Shown: piece by piece, positions 39,178 through 43,713 of the stretch
How the letters are laid out: each line of letters starts with the position of its first letter
Numbering within the stretch: the first letter of the stretch is position 1
Assembly (NCBI GenBank): GCA_937951415.1
Contig: CALFBW010000287.1
Span: forward strand, 1 to 43,713
Direction: 5' to 3'
Length of the DNA: 43,713 bases
Source: an uncultured Chitinophagales bacterium
GTDB taxonomy: Bacteria > Bacteroidota > Bacteroidia > Chitinophagales > UBA2359
Notes under the pieces: generated by a model
Seen by the model: the letters and a program-made list of their open reading frames with translations, nothing else
Told to the model about the DNA's origin: nothing
Databases searched by the model: none
Program-made: the position numbers and the translations under genes

Positions 39178-39645
39178 TTATCCGACTTTTTTATTGCTTA
39201 ATCCTTGAGGAGTAGTTGTGTTTGTGCTGGTCTTTTTTCCCGCAGAAATAGCCGGTGTTCCAGTTCCCATTTTGCAATTTCCGTTAAAGCTTGCACCCGG
39301 ATCGATGATCAATTTACGTGAATGGATATCTCCCTCAACGTGAGATTTATCTTTTAAAGTTAAGATCTCTTCCACCTTAATGGTGCCTATCACCTTTCCA
39401 GCGATATCCATGCTCTTACACTTGATATCACCTTTGACTACACCACTTGCGCCAATAATAATTCTAGATTTTGATTCCAAGTATCCTTCTAAAGTTCCTT
39501 CGATGCGAATGGTCCCATCAGAAATTATCTCTCCTTGAATTTCAGTACCTCTACCAATTCTATTGGTTGTCCCGGATTGATCTGTTGAATTATTTGATAC
39601 GTTATTTTTAAATGTATCGTTTGATTTCTTCTTTAATCCAAACAT
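39178..39645 (-). CDS. Bactofilin (polymer-forming cytoskeletal protein)
   Basis: A 155-residue bactofilin. The central right-handed beta-helix runs from about residue 33 to 125 with repeated short strands (GEIISDGTIRIEGTLEGYL, SRIIIGASGVVKGDI, SMDIAGKVIGTIKVEE, SHVEGDIHSRKLIIDPGASFNG). The N-terminal (about 1-30) and C-terminal (Thr-rich) tails are disordered, as is typical. Bactofilins form filaments at the inner membrane and recruit cell-wall enzymes; here the gene follows a gene for an M23 peptidase by 20 bases, a pairing known to shape cells in other bacteria. The link is inference. Confidence 0.93.
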   Translation of the reverse strand: MFGLKKKSNDTFKNNVSNNSTDQSGTTNRIGRGTEIQGEIISDGTIRIEGTLEGYLESKSRIIIGASGVVKGDIKCKSMDIAGKVIGTIKVEEILTLKDKSHVEGDIHSRKLIIDPGASFNGNCKMGTGTPAISAGKKTSTNTTTPQGLSNKKVG

Positions 39646-39665
39646 TGAGCGTGTTTTTCTGGCGA

Positions 39666-40553
39666 TTAGTCTTCAAATAAAATGTAATCAATAGGGTTTA
39701 CAGGGCTTTGATTGTACCAGAGTTCAAAGTGTAAATGCGGTCCATCGGAAAGCTCTCCGCTACCACCAATTATAGCGATAGCATCCCCAGCTTTCACGAA
39801 AGTACCTACTTTTTTTAATAAAACAGAATTATGTTTGTAAAAAGAGATCAAATTGTATTCATGTTGTACACCTATAATATAACCTGTTTCCGTGGACCAC
39901 TCATTGAGTATGACCATCCCATCTAAAACGGACTTGATCGGTTCCTTTTCTCCCGCCACTAAATCAATACCGAAGTGCTCTGTTTGGATATTGAAGGTGT
40001 CACTCAATACACCATTTACAGGTTTTGTAAAGAAGAGATCCGAGATTTGTGTTTGTTCTTTTTTGCGATCACTGAACAATTCATAGGTCTCAGCAACTTC
40101 CATTTCTTTCCGTAAAATCGAATCTTCTTTCGAAATCACACTTAAATCAACGCTGTCATAGCCGCTGTCTTGTTTACTTCCTGGGGCTTCTTCCAAAGAA
40201 TCAAAATTTGCCAAAGCTTCAGGGTTTCCCGCAAGTATTGCTTGGACCGTTTCTACCCATTTTCCATTCGACTCCACCACATTGACCGTCGAGTCCATTC
40301 TAGAAGCCAAATCAATAGCATCTCTCCGCAAACCAACATCTTGATAACCAGGTATATACAACTTAAGAGGTGTAAAAACTATCATAGCTACGGTCAGCGC
40401 AACAAGAAGTACACACAGCGTGCTAAACACAATGTACACGTTCAAACGTGACAATCTAAACGACAATTTCTCCTCCAAGGAAGTGTCATTCATGATAACA
40501 AGTCGATACTTATTATTTAGTCTTTCAAATAAGTCGCTAGTCTTCTTATTCAT
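39666..40553 (-). CDS. M23 (LytM-type) metallopeptidase, membrane-anchored
   Basis: A 295-residue protein with one transmembrane helix (about 40-61), a linker, and a C-terminal LytM domain. The zinc residues are complete: His193 and Asp197 (HFGIDLV), His241 (YKHNS), His273 and His275 (GPHLHFELW). The complete set suggests an active peptidoglycan endopeptidase rather than a degenerate EnvC-like activator. The catalytic domain lies on the periplasmic side if the N-terminus is cytoplasmic. It is the first gene of the leftward operon and is divergent from the PorW-like gene; the 116-base gap holds the promoters. Confidence 0.9.
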   Translation of the reverse strand: MNKKTSDLFERLNNKYRLVIMNDTSLEEKLSFRLSRLNVYIVFSTLCVLLVALTVAMIVFTPLKLYIPGYQDVGLRRDAIDLASRMDSTVNVVESNGKWVETVQAILAGNPEALANFDSLEEAPGSKQDSGYDSVDLSVISKEDSILRKEMEVAETYELFSDRKKEQTQISDLFFTKPVNGVLSDTFNIQTEHFGIDLVAGEKEPIKSVLDGMVILNEWSTETGYIIGVQHEYNLISFYKHNSVLLKKVGTFVKAGDAIAIIGGSGELSDGPHLHFELWYNQSPVNPIDYILFED

Positions 40554-40669: not shown

Positions 40670-43600
40670 GTGACTAAGGTCTTACGAATAATTCTGCCCC
40701 TAATGTTAGCATTAATCTTAATGCCTTCATTGGACGCGCAATCGAAAAGAAAGCGCAAAAAAAGCAAGAAAGATAACAAAAAATCTTCTGCGCTTAGAAA
40801 TGCTTATCAAGACATGACTGCCCGGTACAATGGGTATTTCAATGCAAAGCTAATCATGCAAGAGAGCTTATTAAGCCTCAAGGATGCTAACCGAGATAAT
40901 TTCAAAGAGATTTTGCCCATTTTCGACTTCACTGGTGGGGACGAAGCTAGTGCAGTTCACGCACAAATGAACAAAATCATTGAAAAATGCTCAGCAGACA
41001 TCACTTTGCATCCCAATAGCAAATGGGTAGATGATTGCTACTTGCTGATCGGAAAAGCGCGTTTCTTCAAGGGCGAGTACGAAGAGGCATTGGTCAACTT
41101 TTCTTATATCGAAAGAAAATTTGGTCGAAACATTCGAAAAGGTGCCAAACAAAAGAAAGGAAAAGTAAAAAGAAACCGCAAAGGCCCAGGTGTCGATTTT
41201 GGCTTAAAGTCTAGTGGAGCTGTATCGAGTGATACCGACAAGATTCGTGAAAACTTAAAGGAGGAAAGAGCGCAGAATAAAAAAGACAAAGACCAAGCTA
41301 GAAAGGATAAAGCGAAAGAGAACAAGAAAATCAAGAAAGAGCGCGAAAAAGCAAAAAAGAAGCTGCAAAAAGAACGGGCCAAAGAAAAGAAACAGAAAGA
41401 AAAGGAACGCGCTCGTTTGAAGAAAATGAGTAAAGAAAAGCGTCGCAAATACATCCAAGATCAAAAAGCTAAAAAGGAAGAAGCTGCAGCGGCTAAGATT
41501 GAGGAAGAAGAAAACAAGGAAGCGGACTTAGCAGCTGAGAAAGCAGAAGAAGCTCGGAAGGCTGCAGATGAAGAAGCTGCTGCATTAGCAGAAAAGGAAG
41601 CTGCTGAAAAGGCAGAAGCTGAAGCATTAGCAGAGAAAGAGCAGGCAGAGGAGGAGGAAGCCAAACAATTTGATTTAGTAGATAGCGACTTGGATCCTGT
41701 CCGTTATGACCGAAATTTCTTAGGGTTCTTAAGTCACCGTCCTGCAAAATTTGAAGGTGCAATTTGGCAAGCTCGTACGCTTATGTCTATGGAACGATAC
41801 GATGATGCTATAAGTCTCATCGAAGGAATCCGAGAGAACAGCAAAATGCCTAAGAAGTTCAGGGGCGAAATGAATGCCCTTTACGCAGGCGCCTTCTTGC
41901 AAAATGAAGATCCAGTCAAAGCTTATGCTGCGCTTTCTGATGCTATAAAATCAACAAGAGGTAAAAAGAAAAGAGCCCGTCTGCACTTTATTCAAGGTCA
42001 AATTAGCCAAGATCAAGCGCAGTATGCCTTAGCGATGAAATCCTACAAAAGGGTTTTGAAGAGCAAGCCCAGCTTCGAAATGGAATTCCATTCGAGACTG
42101 CAAATGGCGGGCACGAAAATGCAATCAGGAGAATACGCATCTAGTGATGTGATTCGAGATTTGGAAAAGATGCTAAAGGAGGAAAAATACGACAATCACC
42201 AAGATGAGATTTATATGATGATGGCGAACATTGCCATTGAAGAAGGTGATATCGAACAAGCAATGGCATACTTAGGAGAATCTGCTGCGAACAGTACGAT
42301 GAACAATGAGATGAAAGCTGAGGCTTACTTGAGACTAGCAGAGCTACATTTTCAGCAAGAGAGTTATTTATTATCCAGCTATTACTATGATAGCACGGCA
42401 AGTATTTTGCCTAAGGACTATCCAGAGATTGACGACATTATCTCGCGTAAAGAAATCCTGGGAGATCTTGCAGGTCATATTAGAACAGTAGAATACGAGG
42501 ACAGTCTTCAGCATTTGGCCCAGTTACCGGTAGATGAGCGCAATCGAATTATTGATGAACTTATCGACGATTTAGAACAAAAGATAGAAGATGAAAAACT
42601 AGCTGCTGAACAAGCTGCTAATGCCATTTTCGAAGATCAAAACTCGAGCGGAAACAGTGCTGCAGGTTCATGGTATTTTTATAATGAGACTGCGAAATCA
42701 ATGGGCTATAATGAATTTCAGTCCATTTGGGGAAATCGCTCTTACAGTGACAATTGGCGATTGAGTGGAACAGCTGGAGATGAGTTTGTTAACCGATCTG
42801 AATCGGAAGCTGAGCAGGCTAGAATTGACTTAGCTCAAACTGGTCGACTTTCGAGAGAGGCCTTTTTAGCTGATATCCCTTTCAACGAAGAGGCGGTATT
42901 GGCTTCTAATAATAAAATCATTGACGCCCTTTTTGGCAGTGGTAATATTTACAAAGACAAATTGGACAACAAACCGAAAGCCATCAACTCTTTTACTGAG
43001 TTGAATGATCGTTTTGCTAAAAATATCCATGAGATTCCGGCTTGTTATAGTTTGTACTTACTATATCGTGCAAACGATGATAATGTGCGTGCCGAACAAA
43101 TGAAAAAGTACATCATCGCAAACGATGCTACTGGCGAATACGCTGGTATACTTCAGGACCCAGAAGCTGCCTCAAGAGTAGATAAAGAGGCGCAAGTATT
43201 TTATGAACAGAGCTATAAGTTGTACTTGGCAGAGAAATTCGAAGAAGTATCAGAGCGACAAAAAGAAGCTGCGAATTTGTACGCTTCCAGTGAAATGACT
43301 CCTCAGTTTGATTTGTTAGGAGCGTTTGTAGTGGGACAAACAGAGGAAAAGAAGTTGTACATCGACGCGCTCAAGGAAGTAAAAGATCGTTACCCAAGTC
43401 ACGAGGTGGGAGAAAAAGCGGCAGAGATTCTAAAGTACATTAGTAAAGAGGAAAAAGAAAAAGATAAGGCTGCGAAAGAGAGCATTTATAAATTCAAGAT
43501 GAAATCTTCACACTACTACATTTTGACTTTCGGTGAGTATGTTGAAGAGATTAATGACGCAATTATTCAATTCTCGAATCATAACACCAGCAAATTCAAA

Positions 43601-43713
43601 TTGGATCGACTGAAAGTAACACCAATGCTTTTGAATCCTGAAAATCAGATTGTTTTAGTAAAAACTTTTCCAAACGGAGAAAAGGCCATGTCTTACTACA
43701 AGCAAACAAATGA
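40670..43713 (+). CDS. porW: PorW/SprE-like type IX secretion component (3' end off window)
   Basis: The frame is open to the right edge, so at least 1014 residues are seen and the C-terminus is missing. The start is GTG at 40670, after an in-frame TGA at 40661. An uncleaved-lipoprotein cysteine is absent: the leader is VTKVLRIILPLMLALILMPSLDA, then QSKRK. Family signatures are RYNGYFNAKLIMQESL (after the leader), SKWVDDCYLLIGKARFFKGEYEEAL (TPR), SWYFYNETAKSMGYNEFQSI with WGNR, and HYYILTF and VKTFPNGEKAMSYY near the right edge. TPR-like helices fill the rest. Residues about 157-340 form a Lys/Glu/Ala-rich insert. PorW/SprE is required for type IX secretion and, in P. gingivalis, links the translocon to the PorKN ring. 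The assignment rests on these motifs. Confidence 0.85.
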   Translation, partial: MTKVLRIILPLMLALILMPSLDAQSKRKRKKSKKDNKKSSALRNAYQDMTARYNGYFNAKLIMQESLLSLKDANRDNFKEILPIFDFTGGDEASAVHAQMNKIIEKCSADITLHPNSKWVDDCYLLIGKARFFKGEYEEALVNFSYIERKFGRNIRKGAKQKKGKVKRNRKGPGVDFGLKSSGAVSSDTDKIRENLKEERAQNKKDKDQARKDKAKENKKIKKEREKAKKKLQKERAKEKKQKEKERARLKKMSKEKRRKYIQDQKAKKEEAAAAKIEEEENKEADLAAEKAEEARKAADEEAAALAEKEAAEKAEAEALAEKEQAEEEEAKQFDLVDSDLDPVRYDRNFLGFLSHRPAKFEGAIWQARTLMSMERYDDAISLIEGIRENSKMPKKFRGEMNALYAGAFLQNEDPVKAYAALSDAIKSTRGKKKRARLHFIQGQISQDQAQYALAMKSYKRVLKSKPSFEMEFHSRLQMAGTKMQSGEYASSDVIRDLEKMLKEEKYDNHQDEIYMMMANIAIEEGDIEQAMAYLGESAANSTMNNEMKAEAYLRLAELHFQQESYLLSSYYYDSTASILPKDYPEIDDIISRKEILGDLAGHIRTVEYEDSLQHLAQLPVDERNRIIDELIDDLEQKIEDEKLAAEQAANAIFEDQNSSGNSAAGSWYFYNETAKSMGYNEFQSIWGNRSYSDNWRLSGTAGDEFVNRSESEAEQARIDLAQTGRLSREAFLADIPFNEEAVLASNNKIIDALFGSGNIYKDKLDNKPKAINSFTELNDRFAKNIHEIPACYSLYLLYRANDDNVRAEQMKKYIIANDATGEYAGILQDPEAASRVDKEAQVFYEQSYKLYLAEKFEEVSERQKEAANLYASSEMTPQFDLLGAFVVGQTEEKKLYIDALKEVKDRYPSHEVGEKAAEILKYISKEEKEKDKAAKESIYKFKMKSSHYYILTFGEYVEEINDAIIQFSNHNTSKFKLDRLKVTPMLLNPENQIVLVKTFPNGEKAMSYYKQTN

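Follow-up and report, generated by a model that had tools for sequence, protein, structure and literature searches.

A two-part charged insertion, predicted to be helical, in the PorW/SprE homolog of an uncultured Chitinophagales bacterium

Structural and interaction work on PorW/SprE, a component of the type IX secretion system (T9SS), rests on two models, SprE from Flavobacterium johnsoniae and PorW from Porphyromonas gingivalis. The N-terminal part of SprE contacts SprA (PMC10994853). The protein also contains an insertion of around 160 residues in TPR 9, called the Finger Region, which binds PorD. The finger and C-terminal parts of F. johnsoniae SprE, which are structurally unresolved, are dispensable for secretion. 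PorW is the link to the PorK/N ring, and a lipobox was stated for all members of the PorW family (PMC8754138).

For a basic single helix rich in K, E and R, the closest known mechanism is that of the KER domain of CAF-1, a helix of 128 Å with a DNA-binding and spacing function (PMC10335832). The PorW/SprE homolog described here carries a charged segment which the solved model protein does not possess, and which may bear on the placement of the type IX translocon with respect to the outer membrane, the peptidoglycan and the motor.

The PorW/SprE homolog and its insertion

The window, that is, the whole stretch of DNA analysed (43,713 nucleotides), is one complete contig of a draft genome. Its last open reading frame starts with GTG, encodes 1014 visible residues and is open at the 3' end, where the contig ends inside the gene. 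The encoded protein scores 538.6 bits against NF052312, the NCBIfam model for PorW/SprE (cut-off 250), and is the only protein of its genome above this cut-off. The sole match in a PDB sequence search was F. johnsoniae SprE (8gl8_I, E-value 7e-46), and the same chain was the top Foldseek match of the AlphaFold2 model (E-value 8.6e-21, TM-score 0.63 by target length). SprA is encoded in the same genome (2387.7 bits), indicating that a type IX translocon is present. Together, the NF052312 score, the SprE fold match and the presence of SprA identify the protein as a PorW/SprE homolog, which shares with SprE and PorW homology over the full length, the TPR body and the C-terminal domain.

The gene is flanked by divergent genes for a bactofilin and an M23 peptidase (39178–40553), homologs of which occur in 31 and 37, respectively, of 80 named porW loci. 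Genes related to the cell wall often adjoin porW.

In the alignment with chain I of 8gl8, residues 43–152 correspond to SprE 31–150 and the match resumes at residue 363, equivalent to SprE 158. Because of this jump from 152/150 to 363/158, residues 153–352 are regarded as an insertion of 200 amino acids. It is charged and predicted to be helical, and SprE has in its place a loop of seven residues, located after the N-terminal TPR helices. The Finger Region lies at another site, and the insert cannot therefore be equated with it. The initial annotation, made from the letters of the DNA, had noticed this segment at 41140–41690 (residues 157–340); the segment is real, and the bounds given for it are correct to within around 12 residues. 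As judged from these comparisons, the insert appears to be a variation on a known component, absent from F. johnsoniae SprE.

The residues K, E, R, A, D and Q make up a fraction of 0.79 in residues 157–340, as compared to 0.44 in the remaining protein. The description of the segment as consisting almost only of these residues is accurate for residues 189–331 (0.87), but not for residues 153–188 (0.47), which form a Gly/Ser/Lys linker. The order from basic to mixed charge, also described at that time, is borne out by a net charge of +17 over residues 189–252 followed by −11 over residues 255–331. The hydrophobic fraction in residues 189–331 is only 0.08, and no membrane helix was found within or beside the insert. 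A search of the genome returned no copy of the insert other than itself.

Tandem Repeats Finder detected in the DNA only three tandem arrays, with units of 5–15 bases in 2–5 copies and scores of 32–46. In view of the lack of a sizeable array and a dN/dS ratio of 0.10 for one pair, expansion by DNA slippage was rejected. An antisense open reading frame (41104–41454) and other minus-strand frames over the insert show no signs of being genes and look like shadows of Lys and Glu codons.

Table 1. Coordinates of the PorW/SprE homolog, its parts and its neighbours in the window
Feature	Position	Strand	Basis or remark
porW/sprE homolog	40670..43713	+	NF052312 538.6 bits; 8gl8_I closest solved structure
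Type I signal peptide (MTKVLRIILPLMLALILMPSLDA cleaved before Q), no lipobox cysteine	40670..40738	+	Read from sequence, family comparison
Lys/Arg-rich tail right after signal peptide, residues 25–40, net +9	40742..40789	+	
N-terminal TPR-like helices, residues 41–151	40790..41122	+	Homologous to SprE 31–150; pLDDT ~85–97
Whole insertion, residues 153–352 (200 aa)	41126..41725	+	SprE alignment, family and order comparison
Flexible basic linker, residues 153–188	41126..41233	+	pLDDT mostly 35–55
Basic straight α-helix (predicted), residues 189–252, 64 aa, net +17	41234..41425	+	AlphaFold2; charges phased at 3.6 residues per turn
Break between helices, residues 253–254 (Met-Ser)	41426..41431	+	AlphaFold2; within motif KKMS.EK common to close relatives
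Acidic Ala/Glu-rich helix (predicted), residues 255–331, 77 aa, net −11	41432..41662	+	pLDDT ~50–70, low confidence
C-terminal linker of insert, residues 332–359	41663..41746	+	AlphaFold2
TPR body, residues 360–932	41747..43465	+	NF052312, 8gl8_I, AlphaFold2
C-terminal conserved domain, first part (residue 948 on), cut by contig end	43511..43711	+	Alignment, AlphaFold2
Bactofilin, divergent neighbour	39178..39645	−	
M23 peptidase, divergent neighbour	39666..40553	−	

Predicted structure and charge periodicity

The AlphaFold2 model of the window protein, built from an alignment of 48 sequences, contains a helix of residues 189–252 (pLDDT ~74–79), a break at 253–254 and a second helix of residues 255–331 (pLDDT ~50–70), with low-confidence linkers around them. 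In another member of the family, L057, the first predicted helix comprises residues 160–263 (104 residues) and the second residues 295–329 (35 residues); the break is longer, around 31 low-confidence residues, and holds the end of an RKKGKAPIK motif and a poly-Ser stretch. The prediction for the insert is thus a pair of charged helices with a break between them and flexible ends, and the earlier expectation of a helical segment, as opposed to disorder only, agrees with both models.

At 0.15 nm per residue the predicted helices of the window protein would be about 9.6 and 11.6 nm long, and those of L057 about 15.6 and 5.3 nm. The attachment points in SprE are seven residues apart in one loop, so the arm must fold back and cannot be a one-way rod; its reach may be roughly 10–16 nm. 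The idea of a single rod of about 180 residues therefore did not survive the modelling (64 + 77 residues with a break here, 104 + 35 in L057), nor did that of a helix of at least 20 nm spanning the periplasm, as the longest predicted helices in the two proteins measure 9.6–15.6 nm and both ends return to the same short loop.

A break motif recurs after the basic helix in the inserts of groups f1 and f18. It reads RKKGK..P in many of them and KKM(S/D)P.K in the closest relatives of the window protein, and has the look of a signal that ends one helix before the next begins.

AlphaFold2 tends to render K/E-rich sequence as helix, and for this reason the order of charges was tested on its own. Charge spectra were compared with those of sequences shuffled inside 28-residue blocks. 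The 18 inserts of the family have peaks at periods of 2.24 (z 31.9), 3.62 (z 6.4) and 5.86 (z 4.4), group values that overstate the significance because the sequences are related. At 3.62 residues per turn, the first three harmonics of a helix are 3.62, 2.24 and 5.84. The 13 inserts of f18, a separate branch, have peaks at 2.24, 3.62 and 5.80 among others. Taken singly, 17 of the 18 family members have their best period at 2.20–2.26, and the window protein alone reaches a z of 8.5 at 2.24. Its residues 190–285 are best fitted by 3.61 residues per turn, a fit equalled by 2 of 1000 shuffles, and the periodicity is limited to approximately residues 193–264, in agreement with the first predicted helix. 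The charge correlation has positive z values at lags of 7, 11, 18 and 29, is close to zero at 14 and is negative at 21 and 28.

Controls behaved differently. Heptad periods are 3.5 and 2.33, and the hydrophobic residues of SMC from the same genome have peaks at 3.52 and 2.34, while the charges of TolA peak at 7.2, 2.66 and 5.36. Judging by its periods, the charge pattern of the insert is that of a straight α-helix and not of a heptad coiled coil; the left-handed coiled coil is ruled out by the 3.62/2.24 peaks and the low hydrophobic fraction. The three-harmonic charge spectrum is a simple means of distinguishing charged helices that are straight from heptad coiled coils and from disordered polyampholytes.

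The initial annotation had also compared the segment to TolA. Domain II of TolA is likewise periplasmic, long and K/E/A-rich, but it has a higher alanine content (0.40), is anchored in the membrane and has a separate domain at its end. The differing periods, the lower alanine content of the insert, the lack of a membrane helix and the position inside a TPR protein rule out a rod of the TolA type. That a single rod of this kind crosses the periplasm is accordingly considered hardly credible, in spite of the K/E/A-rich composition and the predicted helices, since there are two helices with a break, of which the longest predicted is 15.6 nm (in L057), both ends are at one loop and the periodicity is unlike that of TolA.

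The insert resembles charged single α-helices (SAH) in being K/E/R-rich, in having charges in phase with a helix and in lacking a hydrophobic seam. Similarly to SAH domains and CAF-1 KER, it would form an exposed helix with basic stripes along its length, and the 90-residue KER (~128 Å) can be compared with the 104 residues predicted for the first helix of L057. Unlike these helices, the insert is located in a loop with both ends returning to one body, is periplasmic and has an acidic segment after the basic one. Of the oppositely charged pairs at i+3 and i+4 that mark SAH domains, those at i+3 are enriched in the insert (mean z 2.4) and those at i+4 are not (−0.4); pairs at i+1 are favoured as well.

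Distribution, selection and the lipid anchor

The search within the family of the window covered 20 genomes, in which 18 PorW proteins, including that of the window, could be read through the site. All 18 contain an insert of the same kind, 165–281 residues long; this presence throughout the family and a charge pattern beyond that of shuffled sequences show that the insert did not arise by chance.

The order-wide search (Chitinophagales in the GTDB sense) covered 199 genomes, 192 of which had a match, and the length at the site ranged from 12 to about 290 residues. It is 12 residues in f16, 24–58 in f3, f5, f6, f9, f11, f14, f20 and others, 30–42 in f21, 174–184 in f19 and 291 in f2, while in f18 it varies from 37 to 282. 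In the PorW tree f18 groups with named Saprospiraceae and Lewinella. Their Lys-rich inserts share with that of the window protein the site, the basic-to-acidic order and the helix-phased charges, some of them also having the RKKGK..P break, but they are usually shorter (~77–180 residues) and the lipobox is retained.

In named public genomes of Bacteroidales, Flavobacteriales, Cryomorphaceae and Sphingobacteriaceae the loop contains around 6–8 residues; the automatic lengths of ~30–47 obtained for some Bacteroidales and Flavobacteriales are an alignment artefact, the stretch in question being a TPR helix. Among genomes of the same class outside the order, approximately 124 of 138 PorW matches, counted by hand from the class-wide sample table, were unbroken over nearly the whole 716-position model, and the split matches with listed pieces showed no large gap at the insert site. 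As had been expected, neither Flavobacterium SprE nor the PorW proteins of other Bacteroidota orders have the segment, and the comparison of lengths across PorW homologs does not reveal an equal insert everywhere. The suggestion of a clade-specific feature needs to be widened: by these alignments the insertion site is specific to the order, but the clade is larger than was implied, as the whole order has an insert, with very different lengths.

In the tree, the family of the window forms one side of a branch with a support of 84, f2 is adjacent to it, and both together have a support of 100. A contig labelled Candidatus Competibacteraceae, of the Pseudomonadota (L096, JACSSC010000018.1), encodes a PorW which groups with Flavobacteriales with a support of 96, and this contig is probably mis-binned.

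Sequence identity is 0.31 inside the insert and 0.42–0.49 outside. Across the order, each of the 58 inserts of at least 90 residues is more basic in its first half than in its second. For one close pair, L004 and L005, dN/dS was 0.10 in the insert and 0.14 and 0.05 in the flanks, with dS around 0.5 (0.52 in the insert); in two further pairs the synonymous sites were saturated, and no ratio could be derived for the insert. For this pair alone, the ratio shows apparent purifying selection on the insert, while the length itself, given how widely it varies, is loosely held. Random growth of a low-complexity loop would not explain the charge order and the selection well.

The N terminus of the window protein also departs from the published description. 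By pattern-based calls, none of the 17 PorW proteins of the family with an intact N terminus contains a lipobox; their signal peptides finish at a type I site, for example LDA|Q, and many are followed by a Lys-rich tail. The cysteine is present in every named PorW outside this family and f2 in an alignment of 48 rows. The lipobox is also missing in f7, f10, f16 and f19, in most or all of f21, where two pattern hits fall inside the hydrophobic core, and in part of f14 and f3. The NF052312 model does not demand a lipobox. The window protein appears to be a PorW homolog devoid of a lipid anchor, not a typical PorW lipoprotein; a lipid anchor would thus not be universal in PorW, which corrects the published statement.

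Possible roles of the arm

The reading favoured here, although its chances are put a little short of even, is that the insert is a periplasmic polyelectrolyte arm which tethers or spaces the translocon. PorW/SprE serves the type IX translocon as a TPR scaffold. Throughout the order the insertion site is at the loop after its N-terminal TPR helices, and in the family of the window the insert has grown into what is predicted to be a two-part charged helical arm. The chain would leave the TPR body through a flexible linker, pass along a straight basic helix, a conserved break and an acidic segment, and return through another flexible linker to the same place. In the periplasm the basic helix may touch a polyanion non-specifically (peptidoglycan, the phosphates of lipid A or a partner protein), and the acidic half may fold back toward it or maintain its solubility. 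The anatomy comes from the computation, the contact is inferred. In this manner the arm would serve the translocon dish as a tether or spacer, by analogy with CAF-1 KER and not with TolA.

The presence of the insert in the whole family and its restriction to the order, the position in the N-terminal part of SprE, the predicted helices, the uniform charge order and the helix-phased charges in two groups argue for such an arm. The dN/dS of 0.10, the lack of a sizeable tandem array, the SprA gene of the same genome and the KER analogue point the same way. The wide variation in length and the low identity, as found in spacers of little specificity, argue against it, as do the low pLDDT of the acidic half (50–70), the long low-confidence break in L057, the single pair behind the selection estimate and the bias of AlphaFold2 toward helix in K/E-rich segments. 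Secretion in F. johnsoniae does not need the unresolved parts of SprE, and an insert at the periphery of the protein may be just as dispensable.

The main rival, which is distinctly possible while being given a lower chance than the polyelectrolyte arm, regards the insert as a mostly neutral solubility or spacer segment of variable length, where the loop tolerates Lys-rich growth, the helix propensity is a by-product and there is no specific partner. The range of 12–290 residues, the frequency of short poly-Lys linkers among the other families, the low identity and the existence of another Ala/Glu-rich linker in the same genome, in ribosomal protein S16, are what such a segment would look like; on the other hand, a neutral spacer does not readily account for the same polarity in 58 of 58 inserts, for charges phased to a helix in two separate groups, for the dN/dS of 0.10 or for the lack of any family member without the insert. 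A specific docking arm is unlikely. In that case a T9SS partner (the SkpA tentacles, PorD or the PorK/N ring) would be bound by the basic helix, or by the basic and acidic helices together, in place of a contact that Flavobacterium makes in another way. The insert is located in the N-terminal part, which in SprE contacts SprA (PMC10994853), and the other SprE insertion, the Finger Region, binds PorD, but beyond the break motif there are no conserved non-charged residues, some of which would be expected at a specific interface.

The missing lipobox raises the question of anchoring. It is improbable, even if conceivable, that in this lineage a basic SAH arm, by binding an envelope polyanion, fastens a core T9SS component without its lipid anchor to the wall or to the inner face of the outer membrane, as a periplasmic counterpart of KER with the acidic helix as a built-in regulator. 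A slightly smaller chance still is given to a replacement anchor, where the basic tail and the arm would jointly keep a PorW devoid of its lipid anchor at the envelope. The absence of the lipobox from 17 of 17 family proteins, when named PorW outside the family keep it, and the Lys-rich tail behind many of the signal peptides are in line with this. However, the loss of the lipobox and the length of the insert are uncoupled: f18 retains the lipobox in 14 of 14 proteins with inserts of 37–282 residues, f16 is without it in 5 of 5 with 12 residues, and f21 is without it with 30–42 residues. The lack of association across the order rules out replacement of the lipid anchor by the insert as a general rule.

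An order-wide site with graded lengths offers natural variants for testing what the insert spaces or binds.

Other charged tails were noticed in the course of the analysis. Two PorW proteins of f9 (L051 and L052) have a C-terminal extension of several hundred residues with repeats of the AxKAxQDSIxAxx type, which is a second kind of long charged and alanine-containing tail, located at the end that contacts PorN in P. gingivalis. Ribosomal protein S16 from the genome of the window (L002:1052–1969) has a long Ala/Glu/Pro-rich tail, which ends in a helix-hairpin-helix domain.
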